In this document: piece by piece, positions 2,983 to 37,046 of the stretch
Numbering within the stretch: position 1 is the first letter of the stretch
Layout of the letters: each line of letters starts with the position of its first letter
Source of the DNA: Actinomycetota bacterium
Lineage (GTDB): Bacteria > Actinomycetota > Nitriliruptoria > Nitriliruptorales > Nitriliruptoraceae
Reading direction: 5' to 3'
Length of the DNA: 43,865 nucleotides
Assembly (NCBI GenBank): GCA_018335555.1
Contig: JAGXST010000338.1
Location: 1-43,865, forward strand
The notes under the pieces: generated by a model
The model's input: the letters and a program-made list of their open reading frames with translations, nothing else
Databases searched by the model: none
What the model was told of the DNA's origin: nothing
Position numbers and translations under genes: made by a program

Positions 2983-3007
2983 AACAGGCTCCCGACATCG
3001 GCAGGAT

Positions 3008-3027
3008 ACATCTGGTAAACCGGATGT
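3008..3027. promoter_or_regulatory. Dyad operator ACATCTGG-TAAA-CCGGATGT
   Basis: 8-bp arms with one mismatch in the intergenic region between the divergent repressor and reductase. Confidence 0.65.
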
Positions 3028-3089
3028 TACCGTGAGCCCGTGCCCACGCGGGCAGGACCGAGCAGGAACCGCCGAAGATTGAGCACCGG

Positions 3090-8392: not shown

Positions 8393-8453
8393 GCACACCA
8401 GTGTAATGGTCACTGCCTCGGCGACGACACCTCGAATGGAAGCAGGAGCACGC

Positions 8454-9077: not shown

Positions 9078-9268
9078 CCCCACGTGCGTCCGGGTCGCCC
9101 GCCGTCAGGGACGTGTTGCCGGGCCTACAGCACGTCGGGCGGTTGAAGGGCATCACCCGAACGCTTCCCGCCGCCCACGCCACACCTGTGGAGAACGGCG
9201 CGGTCCCGTCTCCCCTCGCACCTACACTGCCACCTCCGCAGACTCGACCGACCGGATCGGAAGACCGA

Positions 9269-9493
9269 ATGAGTGATGATCGGCGATCGGACGCTGTTGG
9301 TTTCCATGCGCGCGTCGTTGCCGATCTAGAGGCCGTCGCTGCACGTGCCGCCGCCGCTGCCCGCCGGCTTGAGTCCGCTGGTGGTGAGCCGAACGACGTG
9401 GTGGCACTTCAGACCGCGGCGAACCGAGCAGCCAGCGCCGCTACGGAGCTGCGTAGAGCGCAGCTAGCCGCTTCTCAACAGCGAATGCTGTAA
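9269..9493 (+). CDS. Small hypothetical protein (74 aa)
   Basis: MSDDRRSDAVGFHARVVADLEAVAARAAAAARRLESAGG…; helical, ends 7 bp before the RM gene. Confidence 0.5.
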   Translation: MSDDRRSDAVGFHARVVADLEAVAARAAAAARRLESAGGEPNDVVALQTAANRAASAATELRRAQLAASQQRML

Positions 9494-9499
9494 GCCCCG

Positions 9500-12364
9500 A
9501 TGGCCACGGTCAACACCGAGACGCTCGACCAGCACACGGCGCTCACCGCGCGGTCGGTTCAGGAGATTACCGGCGCGCTCACGGCCTTCGCGACCAACTG
9601 GCAGGACTACGACGGTGGCGAGGTAGAAGAAGCCCACACCTTCCTCGACCAGCTCTTCGAGGCGTACGGCCTCGACCGACGCGGTGCAGGTGTCAGGTAC
9701 GAATCCAGTCTGCGACGAGCGGACGGCACGACCGGCTTCACTGACGCCATCCTCCCTGGGAAGCTCCTCATCGAGATGAAGCGGCCTTCCAAGGTGGCGA
9801 CGCTCGAAGGGGACCGCGAGCAGGCCTTCGACTACTGGCAGGAGGTCGGCAGCCGCGACGAAGGGGTACCAGCGCCGCGCTACACGCTGCTGTGCGCGTT
9901 CCACCGGTTCATGGTCTACGAGTTCGGGCGGTACCCCCGCGAACCGATCGCCGACTTCACGCTCGAGGAACTGCCCGACAACCAGGGCGCCCTACGGTTC
10001 CTCGCCGGTCAACGCCCGACGGTCGTGCAACCGAACCGCGAACTGACCGCCACCGCGGCCGAGGCTGTCGTCAGTCTCTACCACGAGCTGGTCGCCCGGG
10101 ATGCTGCAGAACCGACCGAGCTCCGCAGCTTCATCCTGCAGACGGTGTGGTGCCTGTTCGCCTCGGATCTTGGAGTGTTGGCGGGACATCCGGTGCAGGA
10201 GATCATCAGCGACCTGCTCACCGACACCCATGACCGACGATCGTCGGCCGCCGAACTCGGCCACCTCTACCGACTCCTCAACCTTCCCGATCAGCATCAC
10301 CCGGACCACCCAAGCGCGGTTCACCAGCAACAGGGTGGCGTCTTCGCGGGCAAGACCAAGTTCGTCAACGGCGGGCTGTTCGCCACGCCTGCCGCGGTCC
10401 ACCTCACCCGGGAGGAACTCGAGAAGCTGCGCGAGATCGGGAAGTACCGGTGGAGAGAGGTCGACCCGACGATCTTCGGCTCACTCATCGAGGGCTTCCT
10501 CGAACGAGACCGAGCGATCGACGACCCAGGCGCTCGGCGACAGTTCGGAGTTCATTACACGCACGCCGACGACATCCGGAAGATCGTCACGCCATGCATC
10601 GTGGAGCCGTGGCAGGGTCGTATCCAGCGAGCCAGCACCGCCGACGAGGCGCTCGAGGTCCTTGCGGCGCTCTGCAAGCTGCGCGTTCTGGATAGTGCCT
10701 GTGGTAGCGCGAACTTCCTCTACATCGCCTATCAGGAGATCCGGGCGTTGGAACGGGAAGCGCGTGACAAGTTCGAGCAACTGGCTCGGGCCAGCGGCGT
10801 CGAACCCCCGGACACCCGACACCTGCAGTTCCCGCTGCAGAACCTCTACGGGATCGAACTCGACGAGTTCGCCGTCCAGGTCGCACGGGTAGTGCTCTGG
10901 ATGGGCCACGAGATCGCCGGACGGGACCAAGGGACCCCCGAGCCACTACTTCCCCTGCCCGACCTCTCCGCAACCATCGTCCAGGGCGACGCGCTCGAGA
11001 TGGCGTGGCCAGCTACGGACGTGATCATCTCGAATCCGCCCTTCAACGGATCACAACGGCTGCGCGAAGCGATCGGCGATGATGCGATCGAACGGCTCAG
11101 GAGCCAGTTCGGTATCGGCGTCAAGGACTACTGCGTCTACTGGTTCCGCAAGGCGGTCGAGCATCTTCCACCCGGCGGCCGGGCCGGCTTGGTCGCCACG
11201 AACTCGATCGCTCATGGCGGAACTCGCGAGGCCTCTCTGGACCACGTGGTCGAGCAGGGCGGCGTCCTCCTCGATGTCGTTCCAAGCCAGACCTGGCAGG
11301 GCGACGCAGCGGTCCACGTAGCGATCGTCAACTGGATCCACCAGCCGGAAGAGACCGAGGGCCCCTTCGAGTACAGGATCGATCACGCACCGATCGCCGA
11401 GGGCATCGGATCGGACCTCCGCCCCGCGGCCGTGTCGGTCGTCTCTGCCGTAGAACTTCCAGCCAACGACGGGATCGCCTTCCAGGGACCCATCCCCGGC
11501 CACCGGGGTTTCGTGCTCGGCGACGAAACAGCCGCCCAGCTCCTCCAGCGTGACGATGCTGACTACGCAGAGGTCGTCAAGCGCTACCTGACATCGGACG
11601 ACATCGCCTCGAGTCCACGCCAAGAGCCGTCACGTTGGATCATCGACTTCGGCCAGCGTGAGCTACACGAAGCCCGACGGTTCCCTCGGGCACTGGAGAT
11701 CGTCGAGCGAGAGGTTCGACCTGATGTGGATCGCCCTCGATGGTGGCAGCTTCACCGGCCTCGACCTGCACGTCGCGAAGCTATCGCTCACTTGGGTCGG
11801 TACCTCGCGGTGGGGCGTCACGGCAAGCGAATCCTGTTGACCTGGTGCGAACCAGAGTGGATCGCGAGCGATGCCACGGTCACCATCGCGCTCGATGGCG
11901 ACTATCACTTCGGCGTCTTGACATCACGAGCTCACACGCTGTGGGCCGCCTACCGCGGGTCATCCATCAAGTCTGACCCGCGATACACCCATACCACGGT
12001 GTTTCGCTCCTTCCCCTGGCCAGCCCCCGATGAGGGACGCCGGGAGATCATCGCTGCCGCAGCGCGCGAGGTCGCCGAACAACGAACGATCGCGTGCACC
12101 GATGCAAACGCCGGGCTGACGGAGATTTACAACATCGTCGAGGACGGCGGCTACCCCGACCTCCTGGGCGCTCACCGTGACCTCGATCGGGCGGTTGCCG
12201 CGGCGTACGGCTGGCCAGTCGGGATCGCCGGAGATGCCTACGAGATGATCCCGCGCCTCCTCGCGCTCAACCACCAGATCGACGCCGGCACGATCGACTA
12301 CGAACCGTTCGTCGATCATCCAGCGCATCAAGGTGACGGAGAACCAGCGGCACGGCTGTTCTGA
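9500..12364 (+). CDS. Type IIG/IIL restriction-modification enzyme, MmeI-like
   Basis: N-terminal nuclease-like DAILPGKLLIEMKRPSK; methyltransferase motifs LDSACGSANFLYIA and IISNPPFNGSQRL; C-terminal target-recognition-like region (HTTVFRSFPWP). Confidence 0.88.
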   Translation: MATVNTETLDQHTALTARSVQEITGALTAFATNWQDYDGGEVEEAHTFLDQLFEAYGLDRRGAGVRYESSLRRADGTTGFTDAILPGKLLIEMKRPSKVATLEGDREQAFDYWQEVGSRDEGVPAPRYTLLCAFHRFMVYEFGRYPREPIADFTLEELPDNQGALRFLAGQRPTVVQPNRELTATAAEAVVSLYHELVARDAAEPTELRSFILQTVWCLFASDLGVLAGHPVQEIISDLLTDTHDRRSSAAELGHLYRLLNLPDQHHPDHPSAVHQQQGGVFAGKTKFVNGGLFATPAAVHLTREELEKLREIGKYRWREVDPTIFGSLIEGFLERDRAIDDPGARRQFGVHYTHADDIRKIVTPCIVEPWQGRIQRASTADEALEVLAALCKLRVLDSACGSANFLYIAYQEIRALEREARDKFEQLARASGVEPPDTRHLQFPLQNLYGIELDEFAVQVARVVLWMGHEIAGRDQGTPEPLLPLPDLSATIVQGDALEMAWPATDVIISNPPFNGSQRLREAIGDDAIERLRSQFGIGVKDYCVYWFRKAVEHLPPGGRAGLVATNSIAHGGTREASLDHVVEQGGVLLDVVPSQTWQGDAAVHVAIVNWIHQPEETEGPFEYRIDHAPIAEGIGSDLRPAAVSVVSAVELPANDGIAFQGPIPGHRGFVLGDETAAQLLQRDDADYAEVVKRYLTSDDIASSPRQEPSRWIIDFGQRELHEARRFPRALEIVEREVRPDVDRPRWWQLHRPRPARREAIAHLGRYLAVGRHGKRILLTWCEPEWIASDATVTIALDGDYHFGVLTSRAHTLWAAYRGSSIKSDPRYTHTTVFRSFPWPAPDEGRREIIAAAAREVAEQRTIACTDANAGLTEIYNIVEDGGYPDLLGAHRDLDRAVAAAYGWPVGIAGDAYEMIPRLLALNHQIDAGTIDYEPFVDHPAHQGDGEPAARLF

Positions 12365-12569
12365 GCCGCAGTGGTCGTCCAGCAGCGATGGAGCGATCTG
12401 CGTTCCGTGGTGTCGCCTCATACGCGTCCTAGATGCGGATGCCGAGACGTCGAGCCTCTCATCGCGATCTTGAGACGCTCCAGACGATGGTCGTGATGGC
12501 GCACCTGCCTGACGGTCGGGTCGGCTGCGGTGTGCGGTCGACCTTGGGCCGGGAAGGAGCGGGTGTGCC

Positions 12570-15500
12570 GTGTCCTCGACGGGCGGGTCGGGTGCCAGCG
12601 TTGGCGGCCGGGCCAGGCGCGGTCCGGCGTTGTCGCAGGGTGATGGTCAACTTACGTTGGACCTATGGGCTGAGGAGGTCACGGATGAACCGCTACGGGC
12701 AGCTGGCGATGGAGCACTGGGAGCAGCACGCGCCGAGTCGGGTCGCAACGATGACGGATCGGGAGGGGTTCTTCACGGACCTGGGCGTCCAGGTGGAGGC
12801 GCAGGTGGTGGAGTTGACGCAGGGTCTGGAGGGGACGCCGGTCGACGGGGAGAGCTACCCGCAGACGGTGGGGCGGTTGACCAACGCCCGGATGCGGGCG
12901 GAGGCGATCGTGTTGACGGAGTTGGTCTGGATCGAGACGCCGGAGCTGGCGTTGGTCGAGGCGCGGGAGGAGTGGGAGGCGACCCGGACGCCCGACAGCT
13001 GGTTGGCCAGCTGGGCGGAACGGATCCAGGACGCTCCGGAGACCGAGCCGGCGACCGAGGAGGTCGAGGATCTAGCCCACCGGTGGGCGGTGACGCCGGA
13101 GTTGCTGTACGGCCTGCTGCAAGCCGAGATCCCGGGCCGGTTCCTGGCGGAGAACCCGGGGGTGCTGGCGGAGGCGGCCAACATCCGGTTCCTGCGCGAG
13201 CAGACGTAGCTCCACGGTTCGTTCCTGCTTCGCAGGCACCCTTGGCGCCGTCGGGGGCGAAGGCTCGGTTCGGGGCCAACCTCGCCGCCATCCGCCTGGC
13301 CCGCCGGCTCGAACAGGAAGACCGTCCGGCGATCGCGGATGAGCAGCAGGTGTTGTCGCGCTGGTCATCGTGGGGCGCGCTGCCGGAGGTGTTCGACACC
13401 ACCAAGCCCGCGTGGGAAGCGGAACGGGCCGAGCTTCGTGGGCTGCTCACCGAAGCCGAGTGGCGGGCTGCGGAGCGGACCACGATCAACGCCCACTACA
13501 CCGACCCAGTCATCGTCACGCGGATGTGGCAGGTGCTGCGGTCGCTCGGATTCGAGGGTGGTTCGGTGTTGGAGCCGGGCTCAGGCGCGGGCACATTCAT
13601 CGGGCTCGCACCGGACTCGGCACGGATGGTCGGGGTCGAGCTGGATCCGGTGACCGCGTCGATCTCGGCCGCGCTGTATCCGCACGCGCAGATCCGGGCC
13701 GAGTCGTTCGCGGACACTCGGCTGTCGACCGGGCGGTTCGACGCGACGATCGGCAACGTGCCGTTCTCCGACGTGCGGTTGCATGACCCGGTGCACAACG
13801 CCGGCCGCCATTCGATGCACAACCACTTCCTACTCAAGTCGCTGGCACTGACCAGGCCGGGTGGGCTGGTCGTGGCACTGACCAGCCGCTACACCCTCGA
13901 CGGCCAGAACCCCGCCGCGCGGCGCGAGATGAACCAGCTCGCCGAGCTCCTCGGCTCGGTACGGCTACCCACCGGCGCACACCGCCGCGCGGCCGGCACC
14001 GACGCGGTGACCGATCTGCTGGTACTGCGCCGACGCGAACCCGACCGCCCGGCAGCAACGAACGGGTGGGAGACGGTCACCACCGTCGACCTCGACGGCC
14101 AGCCGGCGAAGGTCAACCGCTACTTCGCCGAGAACCCCGGTCAGGTGCTCGGCGTCATGTCGGTGACGCGGGGGATGCACGGCGCGCAGACCTTGACGGT
14201 GACCGGCGAGCTGGACCGGCTCGACGAGCAGCTCGGACAGGCGCTGGGCCGCATCGTGACCGCCGCGACCGGACGTGGCCTGCACATGACCCCACGGCCT
14301 TCCGAGCCGGTGCAGCCGACCATCACGCCGGCACCAGAGGTGGGGGTAGGCCAACGGTGGGATGGCCGCATCGTCGCCGCAGATGACGGCAGCTTCGCCA
14401 CCGTGACCGATGGCGGGTTGGTACCGCTGAGGGTCCCCAACTCCGCCAGGGCCGAGCTGCGAGCACTGCTGGGGCTACGGGACGCGGCCACGCGACTGCT
14501 GGACCTCGAAGCCGCCACCGTGGAGGACTCCGACGACATCGATGCCGCCCGCAGCGAGTTGCGACGCCGCTACGAGACCTACGTGGAACGGTTCGGGCCG
14601 TTGGGACGGTTCAGCTTGCGCCGCACCGGGCGGACCAACGACGCGGGCGAGGACACCTACGCCCGGATCGTCCCCGCCGCGATCCGCAGCCTTCGTGGCG
14701 ATCCGTTCGCGCCGCTGGTGCTCGCACTCGAACAGTTCGACGACCAGGACCAGACCGCTACCCCGGCCGCGATCCTGACCCGCCGGGTCGTCGCCCCCAC
14801 CCCCGAGGTGCTGGGGGTCGAGACCCCGGCGGATGCGATCGCCGTCTCGTTGGACCGCACCGGCCGGCTCGACCTGGATCTGGTCGCCGAGCTGTTGGGG
14901 ATGCCCACCGACGAGGCCCGCAACGCGCTCGGTCCGGCGGTGTTCACCGACCCCGACACCGGCCGGCTGGTCCACGCACCGCAGTACCTGTCGGGTGATG
15001 TGCGCGCCAAGCTCGAGACCGCGACCGCCGCGGCGAAAGACGATCTGGCGTTCACCATCAACGAGGCGGCGTTGCGGGACGTGCTGCCAGACGATCTCGG
15101 ACCGGAGGAGATCACCGCTCAGCTGGGGGCGGTGTGGATCTCCCCGCGGGTCCACCAACGGTTCCTGTCCGACCTGCTTCGGGCGTCGGACGTCAAGGTG
15201 GAGAACCCACTGCCGGGCATGTGGGAGGTCCGGGGCGGCCGGACCGGCATCCGGGCCACGAGCGAGTGGGGCACCGAGCGGCGGCCCGCGCCCGACATCG
15301 CCCAGGCGGTGATGGAGCAGAAGTCGTTGCTGGTCTACGACGAGGTCGAGGACGCCGAGGGTCGCAAACGGCGGGTGCTCAACCCGGTGGAGACCACCGC
15401 AGCGCAGGAGAAGGCCCAGGCGCTCCAGGAGCGGTTCGCCGAGTGGGTGTGGGAGGAACCCGAACGCGCACAGGGGCTGGTGGATGAGTACAACCGGCGG

Positions 15501-18197
15501 TTCAACTCGATCGTGTTGCGCGACTACTCCGATGCGGGCGACTACCTGTCGCTGCCGGGCCTGGCGGCGTCGTTCACGCCGCTGCCGCACCAGCGGGCGG
15601 CGGTGGCGCGGATGATCGCCGAACCTTCCGCCGGGCTGTTCCACGAGGTCGGCGCCGGGAAGACTGCCGAGATGGTGCTGGGCGCGATGGAGCTGCGCCG
15701 CATCGGGCTCATCACCAAGCCGGTTGTGGTGGTTCCGAACCACATGCTGGAGCAGTTCACCCGCGAGTGGCTGCACATCTACCCGCAAGCACGCATCCTG
15801 GCTGCCTCGTCCCAGGATCTGTCGGGTGAGAAGCGGCGGCTGTTCGTCGGGCGGGCCGCGGCCAACGACTGGGACGCGGTGCTGCTCACCCAAGGGGCGT
15901 TCCAGCGCATCCCGCTCGATCCCGACACTGAAGCCGCCTACATCGAACGGCAGGTCGATGAGGTCCGAGCCGCGCTGCAGGACGTCGAGGGCGGCGAGCG
16001 GATGAGCGTCAAGCGGGTCGAACGGCGGCTGCTGCAGTTGGAGAACAAGCTCAAGCAGCGCGCCGACCTCACCCGGGATCCGGGGATCACGTTCGAGACC
16101 GCCGGGTTCGACTACGTGATCGTCGACGAACTGCACCTGTACAAGAACCTCGCGACCGAGTCCAACATCCGTGACGCTGCGATCGACGGCTCCGCAAGGG
16201 CGACCGATCTGCACATGAAGCTCGACTACCTGCGCAGCCGGGGGCGGGAGCGGATCGTGACCGGCGCAACCGCGACCCCTGTTGCCAACTCGGTGACCGA
16301 GGCCTACGTGATGCAGCGCTACCTGCGCCCCGACCTGCTCGATGCGGCAGGGGTGGGGGCGTTCGATGCGTGGGCGGCCACGTTCGGGCAGACCGTGACC
16401 CAGATGGAGATGTCGCCGTCTGGAACCGGGTGGCGGCTCAAGACCCGGTTCGCACAGTTCACCAACGTGCCCGAGATGCTGCGCCTGTGGTCCACGTTCG
16501 CGGACGTCAAGACCGCCGACGACCTCGCCCTCCCCGTACCGGACCTGGCCGAACGCGCCGACGGCACCCGTGCCCCCGAGACGGTCGCGGTTCCGGCGAC
16601 CGTCGAGCTGGAGAGATTCGTCGAACAGCTCGCCGCCCGTGCCGACCAGGTCGCCTGCCGGGCGGTGGCGCCCGAGGACGACAACATGCTGGCCATCTGC
16701 ACCGACGGCCGCAAGGCCGCCCTCGACGTGCGCATGGTCGACGAGCACACGCGTCCGTCGGGGCCGACCAAGATCGATCAGGCCGCTGACGCCATCACCA
16801 AGGTCTGGGAGGACACCCGCGACAACTCCTACCTCGACCCGGCCACCGCCCAGCCCTCACCGGTTCCGGGGGCGTTGCAGCTGGTGTTCTGCGACCTCGG
16901 TACCCCCAACCCGACCCGGTGGAATGCCTACGACGAACTTCGCCAGCAGCTGGTCGCTCGGGGGATGCCCGACGATGCGATCCGCTACATCCACGAGGCC
17001 AAGACGGACGTGGACAAGGCCCGGCTGTTCGCCGCGGCCCGCGCCGGTCACGTCGCGGTGCTGATCGGCTCGACCGAGAAGATGGGGGTCGGGACCAACG
17101 TCCAAGCTCGTGCGGTCGCGTTGTGGCACCTGGACTGCCCGTGGCGCCCAGCCGACATCGCGCAACGCGAGGGGCGCATCCTGCGGCAAGGCAACCAGAA
17201 CCCCGAGGTGACGATCGGGCGGCTGGTCACCGAAGGCTCGTGGGATGCGTTCATGTGGCAGACCATCGAACGCAAAGCCCGTTTCATCGCCCAGGTCATG
17301 CGCGGTCGGCTCGACTCCCGCGAGATCGAGGAGATCGACTCGACCGCCGTGCTCTCCGCCGCTGAGGCCAAGGCGGTCTCGTCGGGCAACCCGCTGCTGC
17401 TGGAGCAGGCAAGCGTCCAGGCCGAGGTCAGCCGCCTGCAACGGCTCGAACGCGCGTACGGCCGCAACGAAGCGATGCTCACCGCCACCCGTGACCGTGC
17501 CCGTAGCGACGTAGCCCGTACCCGCGATGACCTCGCCCAGCTCCAACAGGTGCTGCCGCGCCTGGTCGACACGTCCGGTGACCGGTTCCGCGTCCGCATC
17601 GGCGAGAGCACCTACACCTCCCGTACCGACGCCGCCAAGGCGCTGACCAGCTGGGCAAATGAGGCCGGGCTGCGGTACGCACCGACCTACCGCGAGCGTG
17701 ACCACGGGATCGTCGGCCAGATCAGCAGCTTCGACATCACCCTGGCCACCGGGCCCGCGCTCGGTGGCATCCAAGTCGACATCGCCCTGGCCGGTGTCCC
17801 ACGTAGCGGGTTCAGCATTGACCGCGATGCCTTCCTGACCGGTGGGGTCGGGCTGATACAGCGCATCGAGAACCGTGCCGCTGGAATCCCCACCTACCTC
17901 AGCGACGCCACGGCCCAGCTCGAGTCCGCCGAGCAGACCATCCTTGACACCGACGAACGCATGGGCCAACCGTTCCGCCACGCCGGCGCTCTGCGTGACG
18001 CACAGGCGCGGCTGGCCGAGATCAACCAGCAACTCGAGACACTCCACGAGCAACCGGCCACGGACCCCGAGCCGCCGCGCACGGCGGACGACAACCCGTC
18101 CGTCCAGATCAACGGGCATCGCCCTCGGCCCGCACCGCTCGCTGCCTACGGACCACATGCTGAACCGCGCCGCGACCCGTCCGCGCCAACCCGCTAA
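12570..18197 (+). CDS. Giant methyltransferase-like/SNF2 DEAD-box helicase of mobile elements (true start uncertain)
   Basis: Methylase fold VLEPGSGAGTFIGLAP and degenerate motif IV GNVPF; helicase FHEVGAGKTAEMVLG, VIVDELHLYKN, GSTEKMGVGTNVQARAVALWHLDCPWRPADIAQREGRILRQG. GTG 12570 has an AAGGAG SD but 12685-13209 overlaps another gene in another frame; GTG 13083 is an alternative start. Confidence 0.85.
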   Translation: MSSTGGSGASVGGRARRGPALSQGDGQLTLDLWAEEVTDEPLRAAGDGALGAARAESGRNDDGSGGVLHGPGRPGGGAGGGVDAGSGGDAGRRGELPADGGAVDQRPDAGGGDRVDGVGLDRDAGAGVGRGAGGVGGDPDARQLVGQLGGTDPGRSGDRAGDRGGRGSSPPVGGDAGVAVRPAASRDPGPVPGGEPGGAGGGGQHPVPARADVAPRFVPASQAPLAPSGAKARFGANLAAIRLARRLEQEDRPAIADEQQVLSRWSSWGALPEVFDTTKPAWEAERAELRGLLTEAEWRAAERTTINAHYTDPVIVTRMWQVLRSLGFEGGSVLEPGSGAGTFIGLAPDSARMVGVELDPVTASISAALYPHAQIRAESFADTRLSTGRFDATIGNVPFSDVRLHDPVHNAGRHSMHNHFLLKSLALTRPGGLVVALTSRYTLDGQNPAARREMNQLAELLGSVRLPTGAHRRAAGTDAVTDLLVLRRREPDRPAATNGWETVTTVDLDGQPAKVNRYFAENPGQVLGVMSVTRGMHGAQTLTVTGELDRLDEQLGQALGRIVTAATGRGLHMTPRPSEPVQPTITPAPEVGVGQRWDGRIVAADDGSFATVTDGGLVPLRVPNSARAELRALLGLRDAATRLLDLEAATVEDSDDIDAARSELRRRYETYVERFGPLGRFSLRRTGRTNDAGEDTYARIVPAAIRSLRGDPFAPLVLALEQFDDQDQTATPAAILTRRVVAPTPEVLGVETPADAIAVSLDRTGRLDLDLVAELLGMPTDEARNALGPAVFTDPDTGRLVHAPQYLSGDVRAKLETATAAAKDDLAFTINEAALRDVLPDDLGPEEITAQLGAVWISPRVHQRFLSDLLRASDVKVENPLPGMWEVRGGRTGIRATSEWGTERRPAPDIAQAVMEQKSLLVYDEVEDAEGRKRRVLNPVETTAAQEKAQALQERFAEWVWEEPERAQGLVDEYNRRFNSIVLRDYSDAGDYLSLPGLAASFTPLPHQRAAVARMIAEPSAGLFHEVGAGKTAEMVLGAMELRRIGLITKPVVVVPNHMLEQFTREWLHIYPQARILAASSQDLSGEKRRLFVGRAAANDWDAVLLTQGAFQRIPLDPDTEAAYIERQVDEVRAALQDVEGGERMSVKRVERRLLQLENKLKQRADLTRDPGITFETAGFDYVIVDELHLYKNLATESNIRDAAIDGSARATDLHMKLDYLRSRGRERIVTGATATPVANSVTEAYVMQRYLRPDLLDAAGVGAFDAWAATFGQTVTQMEMSPSGTGWRLKTRFAQFTNVPEMLRLWSTFADVKTADDLALPVPDLAERADGTRAPETVAVPATVELERFVEQLAARADQVACRAVAPEDDNMLAICTDGRKAALDVRMVDEHTRPSGPTKIDQAADAITKVWEDTRDNSYLDPATAQPSPVPGALQLVFCDLGTPNPTRWNAYDELRQQLVARGMPDDAIRYIHEAKTDVDKARLFAAARAGHVAVLIGSTEKMGVGTNVQARAVALWHLDCPWRPADIAQREGRILRQGNQNPEVTIGRLVTEGSWDAFMWQTIERKARFIAQVMRGRLDSREIEEIDSTAVLSAAEAKAVSSGNPLLLEQASVQAEVSRLQRLERAYGRNEAMLTATRDRARSDVARTRDDLAQLQQVLPRLVDTSGDRFRVRIGESTYTSRTDAAKALTSWANEAGLRYAPTYRERDHGIVGQISSFDITLATGPALGGIQVDIALAGVPRSGFSIDRDAFLTGGVGLIQRIENRAAGIPTYLSDATAQLESAEQTILDTDERMGQPFRHAGALRDAQARLAEINQQLETLHEQPATDPEPPRTADDNPSVQINGHRPRPAPLAAYGPHAEPRRDPSAPTR
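12685..13209 (+). CDS. Small conserved-looking accessory protein of the mobile module
   Basis: MNRYGQLAMEHWEQHAPSRVATMTDREGFF…; GAGGAGG 6 nt before ATG 12685. Confidence 0.65.
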   Translation: MNRYGQLAMEHWEQHAPSRVATMTDREGFFTDLGVQVEAQVVELTQGLEGTPVDGESYPQTVGRLTNARMRAEAIVLTELVWIETPELALVEAREEWEATRTPDSWLASWAERIQDAPETEPATEEVEDLAHRWAVTPELLYGLLQAEIPGRFLAENPGVLAEAANIRFLREQT

Positions 18198-18640: not shown

Positions 18641-21600
18641 TCAGAGTGTCGGCCCGCGGGTGCGGCGGCCTTGCGCACGAGCGGGCGCGGCCAGGGGAGG
18701 TTGATCGATGCGTGCGAGCCGCCGGGCGCGCCTCGCCGCGGTGTGGGCTCGCTCCGCGTCGCCTTGCTGCGCAGTGGCCTCGGGGGGTGCACCGAGCGGA
18801 TCGTCGCTGCCGATCTGGTGGCGGTCGCGGTAGGCAGCGACGACACGGACCTGTCGCATCCAGGCGGCGCGGCGGCGCGGATCGGCCGGAGGCTCACCGA
18901 GGTCGCGGGTCCAGGCCGTACCGTCGGCAACAGCGGTCTCGGCGAGCGCGGTGACGCGCTGTTCGATCAGTTCGGCACGCTCGGCCAGGGCGTGGCGCAG
19001 GTCGTGGGGCATGGGGCCGCTGGCGTGGGGGATCAGCCCGGCGATGTACCGGGTCGCGGGCTCTCCGCGGCCGGCCGTCGTCGAGGGGACGGCGGTGGCG
19101 TTGGCAACCCGGTGGTGAAGGACGGCGGCGATGTCGTCAGCGTCATCGAACCCTCGCGTCGCGACGAGCCGCGGGAACAGGGCGTCGAGGTCGCGACCGT
19201 CGGCGTCGGCCCGGCGCAGCTCGGCGGCCAGCGGTCCGAACGCGTCGGAGATCAGCACCGCGGCGACCTGCTCAGGCTGGAGGCCGGAGCCTTGGATCAG
19301 GGCGGTCCAGCGGTCGTGTTGGGCTGCGGCAGCGATGGTGTCGTACTCGGCGGCGAGCTGGGCGATGCCCGTCCAGGTGTGCTGCTCGGCCGTGATGGTC
19401 TCGTGCGCCGAGGGTTCGGCACCGACGTGACGGAGCACGCCGGTGAGCACGCTACGGGCGGTGACGTCGGCGTCGTCGGGGTGCTGGTGATGCTCTGCAT
19501 CGGGCTGGTCGGTGGCCACGTAGGCGATGTTGCTGCTGCGGCCACGGGTGAGGGCCACGTAGCAGGTCTCGCGGGTCATCCCGGGCTGCACGATGGCGTG
19601 GGCGGTGTCGACGGTGGCGCCTTGGGCGCGGTAGGCGGTGGTGGCGTAGGCCAGCTCGACGTGTTCGGCGACGTAGTCGGCCGGCAACGTCACCTTCGGA
19701 CCGTGCCGTCGGCCAGCGCGGCGCACGGTCAGCGACCCTTCGCGGTTCGCTCCCGTGACGGTCCAGCGGTCTCCGTTGGTCACCCAGCCGCGTCCGACGG
19801 TCAGCCGGCGATGGTTGCGGCGGGTGACGACCAGGTCGCCGGCGGACGCTTCGGTGCCGTCGTGGAGTGTCACCTGCCCGGTCGGGGCGACGTGGCCGGC
19901 CACGATCCGGTCCAACCGCGCGCGGGTGTTGAGCAGCGTGACCGTGTCGACGGTCTCGGCGATCATGACCGAGGACCGGCCGGTCGCGAGGTCGGCGGCC
20001 CAGGCCTGGTAGGCGGCGTCGAGCATGTCGGCGGTCTCACCCTCACGCAGCCGCCCGTGGGTTTGGTAGGTGTCGATCACGCTGACGTCGCCGGCGCGGA
20101 GCCGTAACGACGCGGCGGCCTCCCAGTCGTGGTGGAAGCGGCGCACCTCGGCCAGCGTTGGGGCATCGTCACGGGCGCGGGCGAGCATCCCGAACGCTCC
20201 ACCGGCATCGACTGCGGCGAGCTGGGCAGGGTCCCCGACCAGCAGCACCTTCGCTCCGGCCTTGGCGGCCTGGCCGACGATCCGGTCCAGGGTGAGGGTG
20301 CCGGCCATCGAGGCCTCGTCGACGATCACCAGCTGCCCCGCCGACAGCGAGACACCTCGGGCGGTGTGGTCGTGGAGCCACTTGGCGGTGTTCTCGGTCG
20401 GCATGTCGAGGTCGTCGCCCAGCACCTGTGCCGCGGCTGCGGACGGGGCGAGGCCGACGACCGACCCGGCCCCGTGGGCCGTCTCCCAGACGTGGCGCAG
20501 CGTGTGCATCGTGGTGGTCTTGCCGGCTCCGGCCGGGCCGAGCAACACGTCCACCGTCCGGCGGGAGGTGACGATCGCACGCAGCGCGCCGTGCTGATCG
20601 GCACCCAACCTGCGCCCCTTCCGTGCCACCCGACCGACGCCCCATTCGACGTCCGCGACGGAGGCGGTCGGCGCGTTGGTGGTGTCGGCGAGGTGAAGGA
20701 GCCGATCCTCGGCCTCCAGCAGGGCGGTCGAGGAGAACACGGTGGCGTGCTTGGGGCGGAACACGCTGCTCCCATCCGATCGCTGGAGGGCCGCCGGGGA
20801 GGTTGCGAGCTCGGGCGGGGTCAGCCGCAACGATGCTCGTTCGGCGGCATCGACGATCAGACCCACCACCGCCTCGCGATCGACCGTCGACGCGAACCGC
20901 AGGCCCATAACCTGGCGGGAGGCTTCGGCGTGCAGGTTCCAACGACGCCACGTCGAGCGCCTGTCACCTACGACGTCGACCACGGTGCGGCCGATCTCGG
21001 CGAGCGCGTCCAGCGGCAGATCCTCGGCCGCCAGCAGCCGCTCGCTCCGTCTCATGGCGAGCAGGTTGCCCGCCCACCCCGTCGCCTCGGTCTCCAGCAC
21101 CCCGGAGGCACGGACCCGCCACTGGTCGGTGAGATCGGCGAGCGAGGTCAGGGTCTTGGCCGGTCGGGTGGCAAGCGTGGCCTGCGCGCGCAGCTTGAGG
21201 ATGGTCGTGGCCGACGGGCGTCGGCCGTGCTCGGCGCGGTAGCGGGCGATCAGCTCCTCGGTCTCCTGCTCGATCGCATGAGAGCGGCTGGAGAACGCCT
21301 CGACCAGCCGCTCGGGCACGCCGGCGATCTCCCACGCCCGGTTGCGGTCCCGACCGCGATCGCGAGCCTCCCATCCGACACCGAGCATGCGGGTGAGGTG
21401 GTCGGCGAGCAGCCCGTTGTAGTGCTCGGACAGCGCAACGGTGGCCGCGTGCATCGGTCGACCATCAAGCGACCGCCACCGCCCGTCGTAGACGGTCCGC
21501 ACCTTGTTCGAGATCACCACGTGGGTGTGCAACTGGGGGTCGCCGGCACGCGAGTCGTAGTGGTCGTAGGCGGTTGCGATCAACCCCTCGACCTCGACCT

Positions 21601-22234
21601 GCGCAACCGCTCCGTCCGGCCCGTTGGCGCCGGTGCGGGTGGCGGCAACCTCGTGTTCCATCAGCTTGATGACGTCGGCAACCGCCGCGTGATGCGCCGC
21701 CACGATCCTCGCCTTCGTCTCGGCGTCCGCAACCGCCCACAGGGCCGACACCGACTTCGGCACCGAGAACGTGTAGTCGTAGCCGGCCACGGCCCGGCGG
21801 ACCGGACGAGCGGCCTCCTCGGCTTGGATGCCGTCGACCGCAGCAGCACGGTCGCCGGCGGACAGCTCGGGGTCGAGGGCGGCGATGCGCTCGTCGATGC
21901 GCTCCTCGCGGCTGCGGTAGATGGGGTAGGCATGACCCAATGGCTCGCCGGTGACCGGGTCGCAGCCCATCCCCAACAGCAGCTGGAGTTGTTCCTCCGA
22001 CACCGTGTCCCCGGACCGCAGTTGCCCGTCGCCCAGGCTTCGGATACCCGAGCCGAACCAGAACCCTGGTGGACAGCCCGCTTCGGCGTAGTAGCGGGTC
22101 AACGGCGTGGACAGGTCCCGCCCTCCGTCACCCGCAGCGACCGAGGCCAGCAGATAGCGGTAGCCATCTCCCGCCGACATCACCCGCATCGACACCGTCA
22201 CACCACACCACCCGAACGCCGGCCCTCGTGTCAC
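18641..22234 (-). CDS. MobF/TrwC-type relaxase with RecD-like helicase domain
   Basis: MSAGDGYRYLLASVAAGD…; relaxase histidines DPQLHTHVVISNKV; helicase Walker A LLGPAGAGKTTTMHTL, LVIVDEASMAGT, VALTRGRSSN. Start may be the ATG at 22189. Confidence 0.92.
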   Translation of the reverse strand: MTRGPAFGWCGVTVSMRVMSAGDGYRYLLASVAAGDGGRDLSTPLTRYYAEAGCPPGFWFGSGIRSLGDGQLRSGDTVSEEQLQLLLGMGCDPVTGEPLGHAYPIYRSREERIDERIAALDPELSAGDRAAAVDGIQAEEAARPVRRAVAGYDYTFSVPKSVSALWAVADAETKARIVAAHHAAVADVIKLMEHEVAATRTGANGPDGAVAQVEVEGLIATAYDHYDSRAGDPQLHTHVVISNKVRTVYDGRWRSLDGRPMHAATVALSEHYNGLLADHLTRMLGVGWEARDRGRDRNRAWEIAGVPERLVEAFSSRSHAIEQETEELIARYRAEHGRRPSATTILKLRAQATLATRPAKTLTSLADLTDQWRVRASGVLETEATGWAGNLLAMRRSERLLAAEDLPLDALAEIGRTVVDVVGDRRSTWRRWNLHAEASRQVMGLRFASTVDREAVVGLIVDAAERASLRLTPPELATSPAALQRSDGSSVFRPKHATVFSSTALLEAEDRLLHLADTTNAPTASVADVEWGVGRVARKGRRLGADQHGALRAIVTSRRTVDVLLGPAGAGKTTTMHTLRHVWETAHGAGSVVGLAPSAAAAQVLGDDLDMPTENTAKWLHDHTARGVSLSAGQLVIVDEASMAGTLTLDRIVGQAAKAGAKVLLVGDPAQLAAVDAGGAFGMLARARDDAPTLAEVRRFHHDWEAAASLRLRAGDVSVIDTYQTHGRLREGETADMLDAAYQAWAADLATGRSSVMIAETVDTVTLLNTRARLDRIVAGHVAPTGQVTLHDGTEASAGDLVVTRRNHRRLTVGRGWVTNGDRWTVTGANREGSLTVRRAGRRHGPKVTLPADYVAEHVELAYATTAYRAQGATVDTAHAIVQPGMTRETCYVALTRGRSSNIAYVATDQPDAEHHQHPDDADVTARSVLTGVLRHVGAEPSAHETITAEQHTWTGIAQLAAEYDTIAAAAQHDRWTALIQGSGLQPEQVAAVLISDAFGPLAAELRRADADGRDLDALFPRLVATRGFDDADDIAAVLHHRVANATAVPSTTAGRGEPATRYIAGLIPHASGPMPHDLRHALAERAELIEQRVTALAETAVADGTAWTRDLGEPPADPRRRAAWMRQVRVVAAYRDRHQIGSDDPLGAPPEATAQQGDAERAHTAARRARRLARIDQPPLAAPARAQGRRTRGPTL

Positions 22235-23813: not shown

Positions 23814-24923
23814 TCAACCTGGTCCGCTGGGGAGCCGCACGGTGAAAGTGGCGCCCCGACCCAGCCCGTCGCTGTCGGCGGTGATGGTGCCGCCGTGACC
23901 GTGCACGATGGCGCGGCTGATGGTCAGGCCGATGCCGCTGCCGGCAACGGGGCGGCGGGCGGGGTCGGCACGGAAGAACCGCTCGAAGACCTGTGGCAGA
24001 TGCTCTGGGGCGATGCCGGCCCCGGTGTCGCGGACCTCGATGCTGACCTGGTCGTGGACGTGTTCCGCCGAGACGGTGACGCGTCCGCCTCCGGGCGTGT
24101 GCTCGAGGGCGTTGCGCAGGAGGTTGGTGAGCACCTGGGTCAACCGGTCGCGGTCGCCCGTCAAGGTGAGCGGCCCTTCGGGCAGCCGATGCCGCAGTTC
24201 CACCTGACGTTCGCGTGCGTCCGGGGTGGATGCGCCCACGGCCGCGCGGACGATCGCCCCGACGTCGAGCGGGGACAGCTCGAGGGCGAGCTGGCCCTCC
24301 TCGGCGCGGGAGACCAGCGACAGGTCCTCCAACAGACGCTGCAGCCGGCCGGTGGCCTCCTCCAGTATCGCGAAGGTTGCATCGTCGATCTCGACGACGC
24401 CGTCGGCCAGCCCTTCGTGGTAGGCCTGGATCGTCGCCAGGGGGGTGCGCAGTTCGTGGGCGAGGTCGGCGAGGAGCCGGCGGCGGGTGTCCTCGGTGTG
24501 TTCGAGGGCGTCGGCCATCTCGTTGAACGCGTCGGTCAGGTCGGCGAGCTCGTCGTCGGCGGCGGGGCGGGGTGCGCGTTCCGTGAGCCGGCCGTCGGCG
24601 AGGGCCCCGGCGGTGCGGGAGAGCTGTTCGACGGGTCGGGCGATCCTGGTGGCCAGCAGCCAGGAGACGGCGGTGGCGGCGATCGCGGCGGCGAGGACCC
24701 CGAGGGTGAGCGCCAACGAGAGGGTCTCAGACAGGGCCCGGTCGAGGTGGTGGGCGACGACATCGGAGACGGGGCCGACCGCACGTCGGATGTGGTCGTG
24801 GAAGATGGGCGGGGCGACGAGGAACGCGACGACGCCGAGCGTGGCGGCCCCGACGAGGATGACCAGCAGCTGGCCGACGAACAGCCGCCGGACCAGCCGT
24901 CGCCGTGGGGTCCGGGTGCTCAC
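23814..24923 (-). CDS. HAMP-domain sensor histidine kinase
   Basis: HAMP region; LLADLAHELRTPLATIQAYHEGL (H-box), LTNLLRNALEHTPGGG (N-box), VSIEVRDTGAGI, FERFFR, GSGIGLTISRAIVHGHGG. Confidence 0.95.
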   Translation of the reverse strand: MSTRTPRRRLVRRLFVGQLLVILVGAATLGVVAFLVAPPIFHDHIRRAVGPVSDVVAHHLDRALSETLSLALTLGVLAAAIAATAVSWLLATRIARPVEQLSRTAGALADGRLTERAPRPAADDELADLTDAFNEMADALEHTEDTRRRLLADLAHELRTPLATIQAYHEGLADGVVEIDDATFAILEEATGRLQRLLEDLSLVSRAEEGQLALELSPLDVGAIVRAAVGASTPDARERQVELRHRLPEGPLTLTGDRDRLTQVLTNLLRNALEHTPGGGRVTVSAEHVHDQVSIEVRDTGAGIAPEHLPQVFERFFRADPARRPVAGSGIGLTISRAIVHGHGGTITADSDGLGRGATFTVRLPSGPG

Positions 24924-25612
24924 GCGTCGACCATGCGGTAGCCGACCCCGCGCACGGTGCGGACGAAGCTCGGTACCTCGCCGGTGTCACCCAGCTTGCG
25001 GCGCAGGTTGGCGATGTGGACCGCGACGACGTGGTCGTCGCGGTAGGCCGAGGATCCCCACACCCGGTCGAGCAGCTGGTCCTTGGAGAAGACCACCCGT
25101 GGCTCAGCGCTCAGGGTGTCGAGCAGGTCGAACTCAAGACGGGTGAGCTCGACCGGTTCACCGCCGACGTGGACCTCCCGGGCGATGGGTTCGATGGTGA
25201 GCTCACCGAACCGCCGCACGTCGGCGGTGGCCAGGGGGCTTCGGCGGGGGCGGCGCAGCATGGCCTGGATGCGGGCCACCAGCTCGTTCGGCGAGAACGG
25301 CTTGGTGACGTAGTCGTCCGCGCCGACCCGTAGCCCCACGATCCGGTCGACCTCGTCGCTGCGGGCCGTGAGCATCACGATGTAGGGGTCGGCGTCCTCG
25401 CGGACACGCCGGGCGACCTCGAGCCCGTCGATCCCGGGCAGCATCAGGTCGAGCACGATGACGTCCGGTCGGACCTTGTCGATGACCGCGAGCGCCTCTT
25501 CACCGTCGTAGGCGGCGTGGACCTCGTACCCCTCACGACGCAGGTAACGCAAGACCAGGTCCACCAGCGGGCGTTCGTCGTCGACGACGACGATCGAGAC
25601 CGTTCGGTTCAC
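24920..25612 (-). CDS. OmpR/PhoB-family response regulator
   Basis: Receiver VVDDERPLVD…DVIVLDLMLPGIDGLE…YVTKPFSP; winged helix LTRLEFDLLDTLS…VWGSSAYRDDHVVAVHIANLRRKLGD…VRTVRGVGYRM. Confidence 0.96.
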   Translation of the reverse strand: MNRTVSIVVVDDERPLVDLVLRYLRREGYEVHAAYDGEEALAVIDKVRPDVIVLDLMLPGIDGLEVARRVREDADPYIVMLTARSDEVDRIVGLRVGADDYVTKPFSPNELVARIQAMLRRPRRSPLATADVRRFGELTIEPIAREVHVGGEPVELTRLEFDLLDTLSAEPRVVFSKDQLLDRVWGSSAYRDDHVVAVHIANLRRKLGDTGEVPSFVRTVRGVGYRMVDA

Positions 25613-25839
25613 GTGTTACGTCCCTGTCCAGCTGCGGTCAGCTCGTGGCGCAGGTGACGGTACTCGTCGATGTCGAGCTCGCCGCGGGCGAGGCGTTCGT
25701 CGAGGATCGTCCGCGCCGAGGGGGGCGGGTCACCAGCGGGGAAGAGCCGGGTGGTCGCCCAGATCGCGACCAGCACGACCACGAGCCAGAACCCGGCCAT
25801 CGACAGCCAGTGCCACCAGGGTGCGACGGTCCACATCAT
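25609..25839 (-). CDS. Small membrane protein with SHOCT-like C-terminus
   Basis: One TM segment and SARTILDERLARGELDIDEYRHLRHELT. Confidence 0.75.
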   Translation of the reverse strand: MMWTVAPWWHWLSMAGFWLVVVLVAIWATTRLFPAGDPPPSARTILDERLARGELDIDEYRHLRHELTAAGQGRNT

Positions 25840-25872: not shown

Positions 25873-26445
25873 TCAGCTGGCGGAGGCGGTGGGGCTGAAG
25901 TTGCCGGTGACGTGCACGGCCGCTTGCTCGCCGTCGGCGAGCAGCGGGATCGCGAGGTGGTGGGGGCCGTCCATCCCGGCGTGCATCTGCAGCGGGAACT
26001 GCACCAACACCGAGCCTCCCGGTGGGACCGGGAAGCGCTGGTCCACCTGAGTGAGTTCGCCGTCGACGTAGATCGGCCCCGGGCAGCACCCTTCGACGAC
26101 CTGGGGCTGGCCGGCGGTGAAGGCGACCTCCCGGTCGGTGGGGTTGGTGACCTCCCAACCGGGCACGTAGGTCACCTCGAGCGCGACCTCGCCCATCGCC
26201 ACCTCGACGCCGGCGATCTGCAGGCCAGCGAGCTGCACCTCGCCGGACACCTCACCCGGCGCCGTCCGCGCGATCCCTCCCATGGGGTTGGGCAGGGACT
26301 CCTCGAGCGCGATCAGATCGGAAGGTGACAGTGCCGCCGCCACGAGCACAGCGAACACGCCGAGAGCGACGACAGCAGCGATCAGCGGCGTGGACCCGAG
26401 ACGGCCTCGTCGGTCGGCTCGGGTCGGGTGGGTCGTTCGGGTCAT
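25873..26445 (-). CDS. Membrane-anchored secreted protein of unknown function with CCPGPIYVDG motif
   Basis: N-terminal TM then beta-rich domain; VEGCCPGPIYVDGELTQVDQRFPVPPGGSVLVQFPLQMHAGMDGPHHLAIPL; first gene of the two-component operon. Confidence 0.75.
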   Translation of the reverse strand: MTRTTHPTRADRRGRLGSTPLIAAVVALGVFAVLVAAALSPSDLIALEESLPNPMGGIARTAPGEVSGEVQLAGLQIAGVEVAMGEVALEVTYVPGWEVTNPTDREVAFTAGQPQVVEGCCPGPIYVDGELTQVDQRFPVPPGGSVLVQFPLQMHAGMDGPHHLAIPLLADGEQAAVHVTGNFSPTASAS

Positions 26446-26567
26446 GTCCCAGTCTCCTCGCTGCCGGGCCGGAACCGGCTCAGGTGGCGGCGGTGATCCC
26501 GCCGTGCGTCGCTCGTACGCTCGAAGGTCGTCGAGTGCAGCGTGCCGGCGGACGGTGCGGACGGCGG

Positions 26568-26692
26568 CAAGGACGCATCAAGAGACCGTCAAGGCTGCGT
26601 GGCCCTCCCTGGCGCGGCACGAGAACCCCGTGAGGTGTCGAGCATCGTCATGTGTCAGTAGCTCGACAAGGTTGGTTCAAGAACCCATCAAG
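26568..26692. promoter_or_regulatory. Two triplets of CAAG at 11-bp period; probable response-regulator binding arrays
   Basis: CAAG at 26568, 26579, 26590 and at 26667, 26678, 26689; gap between triplets 77 bp = 7 x 11. Confidence 0.65.
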
Positions 26693-26768
26693 CAGGCTAC
26701 CCGGCACCCGTCGGACCGCGAGAACCGGGATACCGTCGATCCCCGAAGCCCCGCTCAAGGACGTCTCC

Positions 26769-27335
26769 GTGCGCATCCGTTCCAAGCTCATCGTCACCGC
26801 GAGCCTCGCGGCCGGGCTCGTCCTTTCGGCCTGCTCCGGATCCGACGAGCCGGCCGCCGTCGATACCGCCGGAGAAACCACCGACGACGCGGTCGGCGAG
26901 GACGGCGATGACACGCCAATGGGGGACGACGGCCTGGACCACGCCGACGATGAGGCGATGGGCGAGGCGATGGGCGAGGCCGCTGACGCCTCCGAAGCCA
27001 CCCGCACGATCTCGGTCGAGGCCTTCGACATGGCCTTCGACCCCGAAACGATCTCGGTCGAGCCTGGCGAGGTGGTGACCTTCGAGGTGACCAACACCGG
27101 CGAGGCCGCCCACGAGTTCTTCCTCGGCGACGGCGCCATGCAGCAGGAGCACGCCGAGGAGATGGCGGGCATGGACAGCGACATGGCGCACGACGAGCCG
27201 TACAGCATCCGTCTCGACCCGGACGAGACCAAGGAGCTCACCTGGCGGTTCGCCGAGAGCGGCGAGGTCGAGTTCGCCTGCCACGAACCCGGCCACTACC
27301 AGGCCGGCATGCACGGCCAGATCACCGTCGGATGA
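26769..27335 (+). CDS. Cupredoxin-domain lipoprotein (plastocyanin/azurin-like)
   Basis: Lipobox LVLSACSGS; TISVEAFDMAFDPETISVEPGEVVTFEVTNTGEAAHEFFLGD…FACHEPGHYQAGMHGQITVG (Cu ligands H…C-H-M type). GTG start at 26769. Confidence 0.9.
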   Translation: MRIRSKLIVTASLAAGLVLSACSGSDEPAAVDTAGETTDDAVGEDGDDTPMGDDGLDHADDEAMGEAMGEAADASEATRTISVEAFDMAFDPETISVEPGEVVTFEVTNTGEAAHEFFLGDGAMQQEHAEEMAGMDSDMAHDEPYSIRLDPDETKELTWRFAESGEVEFACHEPGHYQAGMHGQITVG

Positions 27336-30807: not shown

Positions 30808-31263
30808 TCAGTCCCCTGTGACGTCGTGGCCGTGGTGGTCCACCTCGACCTGCTCGGTCGGGGACGTCGCGGGATCCGGGCTGGTCGCGGCACCGATCGC
30901 TGGACCGACGAACAGCGTCGAGACGGTGTAGATCGCCGCGAACGCCGCCAGGGCCAGACCCGGGACGCGCCAGCTGCCGGTACGACGCCGGAGCCGGCGC
31001 AGCATCGGGATCGTCGCGACGAAGCCGGCCACCCCGAACAGCGCTCGGCCACCGGCTCCGGCGACCAGCGCCGTGCCTGCCAAGGGACCGACGTGGTGCA
31101 GCACGTGGGGAGCCGCCCCCGTGACGGCCGCCCACAACCCCAGCAGCGTTGTGCGTACCCGGGTAGCGACGCTGGGCGTCCCCGTGCGGACGTTGCTCGC
31201 TGACGGGTGCATCGGCACGTCACGCGCCGGCGACTCGCGTGGGATCTGGCCGCTCATGTGCAC
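30808..31263 (-). CDS. Membrane protein with His-rich C-terminus
   Basis: Hydrophobic segments around APHVLHHVGPLAGTALVAGAGG; C-term VEVDHHGHDVTGD; overlaps the CsoR-like gene. Confidence 0.7.
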   Translation of the reverse strand: MHMSGQIPRESPARDVPMHPSASNVRTGTPSVATRVRTTLLGLWAAVTGAAPHVLHHVGPLAGTALVAGAGGRALFGVAGFVATIPMLRRLRRRTGSWRVPGLALAAFAAIYTVSTLFVGPAIGAATSPDPATSPTEQVEVDHHGHDVTGD

Positions 31264-31538
31264 CTCACCAGCCGCTGGACCAGCATCAACATCGCCTCCA
31301 GGCGTTCGTCGTCCTGAGCGGGCGTGCCCCGATCCGGTGGTGCGCGGTCGGCGACCTCCTGGGTGATCAGCGCCAGACCGAGACCGCCCAGGGCGGCGCG
31401 GATCGCCGCGATCAGGTCGAGCAGGTCGGTGGTCGGTCGCTCCGCCTCGTACATCCGAACCAGCGCGCGCGTCTGCCCCTCGATCCGGTTCAGGCGAGCC
31501 TGTACCGGTGAGCGGGTGTGGGCCGTGGTGACCGTCAC
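31254..31538 (-). CDS. CsoR/RcnR (DUF156)-family regulator lacking canonical Cu ligands
   Basis: RLNRIEGQTRALVRMYEAERPTTDLLDLIAAIRAALGGLGLALITQEVADR; GTG start 31538 preceded by GAGGAG. Confidence 0.85.
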   Translation of the reverse strand: MTVTTAHTRSPVQARLNRIEGQTRALVRMYEAERPTTDLLDLIAAIRAALGGLGLALITQEVADRAPPDRGTPAQDDERLEAMLMLVQRLVRCT

Positions 31539-31736
31539 GGTGTGCTCCTCGTGCCGTGGCTGGGGCGCGTCGAGGCCACGTTGCCGCTGGACGGTCAAGT
31601 CCTGGCGCGGTTGTGCGTCAATATCTCGTCAAGACCGTCCCGGCACGATGAGGACGTGAGGCGCTCCCCCGCGGGCGACCGGTCGCAACAACCCCGCAGT
31701 CCCAGCCGTCGAACACCGGCGACCGACGCCTCCCAC

Positions 31737-35856: not shown

Positions 35857-36255
35857 TCAGCTCAGCTGCTGCAGCGCCTGGCTGCAGACCTCGGCGCAGC
35901 GACGGCACGCTTCGGCGCAGATGCGGCAGTGCTCGTGCATCTGGGCGTGCTGGTCGCACTCGTCGGCGCAGGCCCGACAGGCGACCTCGCACGCGTTCAG
36001 TAGGGACCGCAGCGTCTCGCTGTCGCTGTCGGTGAGACGGGAGGCGATGCGGGCGCCGGCGAGGCACACGTCGGCGCAGTCCTGGTTGAGGCGGATGCAG
36101 CGTCGTAGGTCGGCGACCATGTCCTCGGCGAGGCAGGCGTCGGCGCAGCTGGTGCAGGCTTGGGCGCAGTCGAGGAGGCTCTCGATGACCTCGGTGAGGT
36201 GGGTGGTGTCGACGTCGCCGCGTGGGTGGGTCTGCAGGATCTGCTCGGTGTGCAT
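35857..36255 (-). CDS. Cys-rich four-helix bundle protein, copper-storage protein (Csp/DUF326)-like
   Basis: Regular CxxxC/CxxC spacing: LLDCAQACTSCADACLA…RRCIRLNQDCADVCLA…NACEVACRACADECDQHAQMHEHCRICAEACRRCAEVC. Confidence 0.92.
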   Translation of the reverse strand: MHTEQILQTHPRGDVDTTHLTEVIESLLDCAQACTSCADACLAEDMVADLRRCIRLNQDCADVCLAGARIASRLTDSDSETLRSLLNACEVACRACADECDQHAQMHEHCRICAEACRRCAEVCSQALQQLS

Positions 36256-36401: not shown

Positions 36402-37046
36402 TCAGACGAGCTCCCACTCCTCGAGCCACTGCTGCATCTGGTCGATCTCGGCCTCCTGCGCGTCGATCACGAGCTGGGCGAGGCCGGCGACCTCCTCGTC
36501 CTGGCCCTCGGCGAGGACCTGCTCGGCCATGTCGATGGCGCCCTGGTGGTGTTCGATCATCGCCTCCATGAAGCGGCGGTCGAACTCGTCACCTTCGAGC
36601 TGGCGCAGCTCCTCCATCTCCCCTTCCTCCATCATCCCCATGTCGCCGTGGTCCATGTCGCCCATGTCGTCCATGGCCATGTCGTCGGCGTCCATGCGGT
36701 CGAGCATCCCGCGTAGGAGGGAGATCTCCTCGTCCTGAACGTCGATGATCTCGTTGGCGAGATCGATCGGTTCCTGACGTTCGGTGCGGCCCTCGACGAG
36801 TTCCGCCATCTCGATGGCGCCCTCGTGGTGCGGGATCATGCCTTGGACGAACTGGATGTCGGCCGCGTTGGCCTCGCCGTCAGCGGCGGCTTCGTCGTCA
36901 GGTTCTACGACGTCGGGGTCCTCGGCGGGCGGCTCGTCCATGGGCATGTCCATGGTGGGGTCGTCGCCTTGGCCGCAGGCGGCCAGGACGACCGAGAGCG
37001 CCGCGGCGGCGGCGATGGCCCGGAGTGGCTTGCGGGTGGTACGCAC
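36402..37046 (-). CDS. DUF305 lipoprotein with Met/Asp-rich insertion
   Basis: Lipobox VLAACGQG; MIPHHEGAIEMAELV and MIEHHQGAIDMAEQVL. Confidence 0.92.
   Translation of the reverse strand: MRTTRKPLRAIAAAAALSVVLAACGQGDDPTMDMPMDEPPAEDPDVVEPDDEAAADGEANAADIQFVQGMIPHHEGAIEMAELVEGRTERQEPIDLANEIIDVQDEEISLLRGMLDRMDADDMAMDDMGDMDHGDMGMMEEGEMEELRQLEGDEFDRRFMEAMIEHHQGAIDMAEQVLAEGQDEEVAGLAQLVIDAQEAEIDQMQQWLEEWELV

Follow-up and report, generated by a model that had tools for sequence, protein, structure and literature searches.

Two TCAAG direct-repeat arrays as predicted operators of a CopRS-like two-component switch in an actinobacterium

The 323-bp intergenic region at 26446-26768 separates a leftward operon, which includes a two-component system, from a rightward gene for a cupredoxin lipoprotein, and the question it raises is what two CAAG triplets of exact 11-bp period are doing between them. 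An earlier note on this DNA had read CAAG at 26568, 26579 and 26590 and again at 26667, 26678 and 26689, and all six were confirmed, as were the start-to-start distances of 77 bp and 99 bp between the triplets. In the window, by which we mean the whole 43.9-kb stretch of DNA analysed, an exact pattern search for (CAAG-N7)x3 with no mismatch returned two sites only, array 1 (GCAAG-N6-TCAAG-N6-TCAAG, 26568-26593, + strand) and array 2 (ACAAG-N6-TCAAG-N6-TCAAG, 26667-26692, + strand). Read leftward, array 1 becomes CTTGA-N6-CTTGA-N6-CTTGC; the leftward operon starts 123 bp from it, and array 2 ends 76 bp upstream of the cupredoxin lipoprotein GTG. CAAG occurs seven times on the + strand of the intergenic region and not once on the - strand. 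A CAAG triplet of period 11 arose in none of 5000 dinucleotide shuffles of this region, and two triplets with the same 4-mer and the same period (any 4-mer, periods 8-14) arose in 3 of 5000. The window CAAG triplets are not due to chance. Downstream of array 2 the sole TANNNT hexamer ahead of the cupredoxin gene is TACCGT (26731-26736, + strand), a weak candidate for a -10-like element from its consensus match; no shared -35/-10 layout was found across the array promoters, except for this hexamer, and no -35/-10 pair before the leftward operon was convincing.

The arrays are flanked as had been described, but the first leftward gene is not one of the two-component pair. It encodes a membrane-anchored beta-sandwich protein, P190 (25873-26445, - strand), and is followed by a small membrane protein with a SHOCT-like C-terminus, scoring under the Pfam cut-off (25609-25839, - strand), with the regulator and kinase as third and fourth genes of the operon. 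The regulator (24920-25612, - strand; recognition helix DHVVAVHIANLRRK) contains a receiver domain (PF00072, 6.7e-31) and a Trans_reg_C domain (PF00486, 1.7e-25), which bears out its placement in the OmpR/PhoB class. More specific assignments were rejected, both to the CzcR/SilR/CopR model TIGR01387 (151.5 against a cut-off of 279.2 bits) and to MtrA, NF040689 (233.3 against an equivalog cut-off of 300 bits). The sensor histidine kinase (23814-24923, - strand) has a short extracytoplasmic loop, IFHDHIRRAVGPVSDVVAHHL, with histidines that are conserved in the window's group, and in several relatives the loops are Met/His-rich. On the other side, the cupredoxin lipoprotein (26769-27335, + strand) belongs to the plastocyanin/azurin family and is CopI-like, under the NCBIfam cut-off. 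P190 has no Pfam or NCBIfam match, and its model matches general Ig/PapD-like sandwiches only, which carry no functional meaning; judged from its ligands and neighbours it is likely to be metal-related, and the motifs LPNPMGG, EGCCPGP and FPLQMHxGMxG are invariant. In addition to the window protein at 25873-26445, family members were seen at L084 5801-6373, L126 2026-2610, L129 3601-4164 and L132 5668-6186.

From its genes, the contig as a whole appears to be an island for copper or heavy metals. It carries a CsoR-family repressor (31254-31598), a DUF326 protein (35857-36255) and a DUF305 protein (36402-37046), and the stretch 2623-4442 encodes an ArsR regulator as well as a pyridine nucleotide-disulphide oxidoreductase. 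There is also a defence-like cluster at 8406-18197, with a TIR protein near ThsB models, a restriction-methylase of type IIG that resembles MmeI, and a helicase-like protein of 1875 aa whose matches to BrxH/DrmD are weak. A 1197-aa ORF at 18641-22234 resembles, by eye, a relaxase of conjugative type that includes a helicase domain, and for this reason the island may be mobile.

The source genome (G000) is a 3.3-Mb assembly of 349 contigs, ~78% complete, and the genome scan for (CAAG-N7)x3 that had been suggested pointed to a coherent small regulon. Exact matches numbered three, namely the two window arrays and a triplet on contig C160 (4627-4652), which directly precedes a paralogous operon in the order cupredoxin, PCYCGC protein, P190 homologue, response regulator and histidine kinase. 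The C160 regulator is 75% identical to that of the window, with a single I to M difference in the recognition helix. When the window and C160 promoters were aligned, the TCAAG words and a weaker CG[GA]CAAG unit 1 were common to both while the spacers differed; the conserved core is the TCAAG of units 2 and 3, with unit 1 (GCAAG or ACAAG in the window) weaker. TCAAG-N6-TCAAG occurs four times in the 3.3 Mb, the fourth on contig C163 (6743-6758), ~94 bp upstream of a gene for a small secreted Met/His-rich protein with no family match, and each of the four pairs lies at the promoter of a gene for a secreted protein that is cupredoxin-type or rich in metal ligands. The window regulator and its C160 paralogue probably share a small regulon, comprising the divergent window pair, the C160 operon and the C163 gene, and this may be larger, since the assembly is 78% complete. 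The small Met/His-rich protein was recorded at L086 1610-1924 and L127 4593-4913, with a TCAAG pair upstream in two genomes.

Judged from sequence and gene context, the arrays are almost certainly what a two-component switch of CopRS-like kind, probably one that senses copper, would bind. In a class survey of 66 genomes, regulator orthologues (at least 64% identity and >270 bits, below which scores drop to ~213 bits) formed a group from G000, G024, G029, G051, G060 and G064. In G051 a triplet is flanked by a divergent cupredoxin on one side and a PCYCGC/P190/SHOCT/regulator/kinase operon on the other. In G024 there are two pairs, 81 bp apart and on opposite strands, the left preceding a cupredoxin/SHOCT/regulator operon and the right preceding an orthologue of the Met/His-rich protein. 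In G029 a pair is found 150 bp before the regulator, and G064 and G060 contain one-base variants of the pair. G040 has kept P190, but neither a regulator orthologue nor an array was found there. These loci also bear on whether the window arrays are bound mainly by some other OmpR-class regulator, above all the C160 paralogue, which would be suited to the task by its close identity, its almost unchanged helix and the same triplet in its own promoter. However, G051, G024, G060 and G064, with one orthologue found in each, have all kept the array beside the regulator gene, and we consider such a reassignment improbable. Because the two paralogues most likely share sites, binding by the C160 regulator would supplement control by the window regulator and not replace it.

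Across the Actinomycetota we compared 35 loci in which the 24920-25612 regulator has an orthologue, and T[CG]AAG-N6-T[CG]AAG was present within 3 kb in 27, with one-base variant arrays in five further loci (L128, L129, L006, L148 and L153) and no array in the locus DNA searched for L144, L151 and L152. The 2 kb upstream held 22 T[CG]AAG pairs at period 11 and none at periods 7-10 or 12-14; likewise, TCAAG pairs numbered 18 at period 11 compared with none at these other periods. Upstream of paralogous regulators, period-11 TCAAG pairs were found at 0 of 99 loci, which ties the arrays to this regulator lineage, although the looser T[CG]AAG pair, sought in a larger region, matched at 11 of the 99. 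The repeats are thus conserved in orthologous promoters, a point that the earlier note had left to alignment, and their period of 11 is specific. That they arose by chance or as a functionless short tandem duplication could draw on the shuffles, in which some 4-mer forms a triplet of period 8-14 in 483 of 5000 (~10%) for one intergenic region, but it is barely credible given that only TCAAG is conserved, that the N6 spacers differ, and that both the period and the conservation extend across families. Array length ranges from two to four units, with three exact units in L143 and L147 and four in L139, and in family f15 many arrays closely follow the kinase gene instead of preceding the regulator.

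In most contexts compared, CTTGA is oriented toward the nearest gene. The exceptions are array 2 and the G051 array toward its cupredoxin, and both window arrays therefore point toward the regulator operon; the distance from array 1 to its start codon is ~50 bp longer than usual among these contexts. The earlier note had put the two arrays on the same helical face and raised the possibility of looping, and looping or same-face assembly would couple the divergent promoters through two arrays of equal orientation, 99 bp apart, with three units each. However, 99 bp corresponds to 9.43 turns at 10.5 bp per turn, so a shared face does not follow, and this spacing is repeated in no other orthologous promoter, since two-array layouts elsewhere are 81 bp and opposed (G024) or 31 bp (L137 and L154) and most orthologous promoters have a single array. 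Furthermore, a single CopR box, TGAAGATTTgaTGAAGATTT, activates two divergent operons in C. glutamicum (PMC3140484), so that a second array is not required in principle. Coupling of this kind is therefore very improbable, and one array per promoter is the simplest reading of the two-array layout. As a separate observation, two TCAAG pairs exactly 31 bp apart are found upstream of the regulator in L137 and L154, and in L154 also past the kinase, which makes three promoters of one family and a second recurring two-array geometry.

Wider scans showed how far the motif can be used by itself. The TCAAGA triplet (three units) was found at three sites in 398 genomes, of which that in G089 lies ~1.1 kb past a regulator orthologue. 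The pair TCAAGA-N5-TCAAG, searched class-wide, gave 8 sites in the 6 orthologue-bearing genomes and 13 in 60 genomes without an orthologue, approximately the control level, and because of these 13 sites the two-unit motif alone is not diagnostic, while its neighbourhood is. A match at G064:C158 was considered as an operator and rejected, as no copper gene lies beside it and it looks like background. Pairs of TCAAGA-N5-TCAAG sites 364-381 bp apart were observed at G036:C84:5460 and 5841 and at G039:C118:500 and 864, in related genomes with no regulator orthologue.

The regulators themselves offered a further line of evidence. In the aligned DNA-binding domains, an Asn (VHxANLR) accompanies TCAAG arrays and a His (VHVGHLR) accompanies arrays that include TGAAG or TAAAG units. 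Pure TCAAG arrays were found at 23 of 24 loci of the Asn type and 0 of 7 of the His type, with TGAAG or TAAAG units at all 7 of the latter; L129, of the Asn type, combines TCAAG with TAAAG. Fisher's test gave p = 3e-6, a value valid for independent loci, which these are not. On the tree, half-site base 2 changes from C to G/A in a single clade along with the Asn to His change, and as this is one event the covariation is effectively a single observation. In a gap-free alignment with the PhoB-DNA structure 1gxp, the variable residue falls on Arg201, for which a hydrogen bond to a guanine is described (PMC3973317). By residue pattern it corresponds to Tyr220 in PhoP of M. tuberculosis, where the contact is with the C at base 2 in the motif TCACAGC (PMC4832192); base 2 is also the base that changes in the arrays here. 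This pattern is indirect evidence that the window regulator would read TCAAG words. TGAAG arrays occur in the actinobacterial homologues L007, L008 and L140, with L006 having one TAAAG unit. We give even odds to a broader reading, in which a phylum-wide family of CopR-like regulators in Actinomycetota would use TSAAG-N6-TSAAG in two to four units, with the residue at PhoB position 201 setting base 2 (Asn for C, His for G/A), and the window lineage would have two paralogous systems sharing one code and a regulon that includes the P190 family and the Met/His-rich secreted peptide.

For the window itself we put a probability of about 0.88 on the whole explanation, namely that the arrays are operators of the 24920-25612 regulator, which would act with a copper-type kinase and control both genes. 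The autoregulated OmpR/PhoB-type system proposed earlier for both genes is well supported, as far as sequence can speak, by conservation, period specificity, location and helix covariation. In the mechanism we propose, the kinase would sense an extracytoplasmic metal, most likely copper, via its short loop and phosphorylate the regulator, molecules of which would bind the DNA directly in a head-to-tail row, with a single molecule on each 11-bp TCAAG unit. OmpR/PhoB regulators are known to bind direct repeats in this manner, and PhoP can bind cooperatively as trimers and tetramers where the repeats are suitable (PMC4832192), so arrays of three and four units fit. Once phosphorylated, the regulator would fill the three units of each array and activate, and not repress, transcription in both directions, with array 1 serving mainly the leftward P190/SHOCT/regulator/kinase operon (autoregulation) and array 2 the rightward cupredoxin lipoprotein. 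Copper as the signal is suggested by gene content, that is, the cupredoxin and the nearby CsoR-family, DUF326 and DUF305 genes. A repeat first noticed by eye thereby becomes a testable operator code for a predicted metal-sensing system in an actinobacterial lineage that has been little studied. It also connects secreted proteins that otherwise lack annotation with the handling of copper, and provides a natural exchange of one residue and one base for work on DNA reading by OmpR-class regulators.

Among known systems, the proteobacterial CusR/CopR/PcoR group resembles the proposed window system in having periplasmic copper proteins next to an OmpR-class regulator that responds to metal, but its operator is an inverted repeat instead of an 11-bp direct repeat. 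PhoB and M. tuberculosis PhoP have in common with the window regulator a winged helix and, as predicted for the latter, head-to-tail use of 11-bp direct repeats, and the PhoP motif TCACAGC shares TCA with TCAAG, although the half-site differs, as do the helix residues (RR in PhoB, SY in PhoP and AN here). CopRS (CgtRS9) of C. glutamicum, with its operator TGAAGATTTnnTGAAGATTT between divergent operons (PMC3140484), shares with the predicted window system an OmpR-class regulator, an 11-bp direct repeat (9+2), copper-related targets and a tiny regulon, as well as a site between its own operon and a divergent copper operon, a layout also seen in the window and G051. The consensus of the orthologous arrays, TSAAGATTCGNTSAAG, resembles the CopR box, although the window units, being TCAAG with a poor match beyond base 5, do not match the CopR operator, and G000 contains no CopR box with up to two mismatches. 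A phylum scan with that box at two mismatches defined no family, with scattered matches, many in few genomes, and a control alike. In contrast to CopRS, half-sites here are TCAAG and not TGAAG, there are three units and not two, two arrays per intergenic region and four sites in the genome, and the predicted targets are a cupredoxin and uncharacterised proteins rather than the CopO multicopper oxidase and CopB ATPase. We found none of the TCAAG operator form, multi-unit arrays or these targets in the open papers that were searched. An OmpR-class direct-repeat operator of the CopR-box type is already a known kind of regulation, and what is new here is that regulation of this kind is traced in detail in an unstudied lineage.
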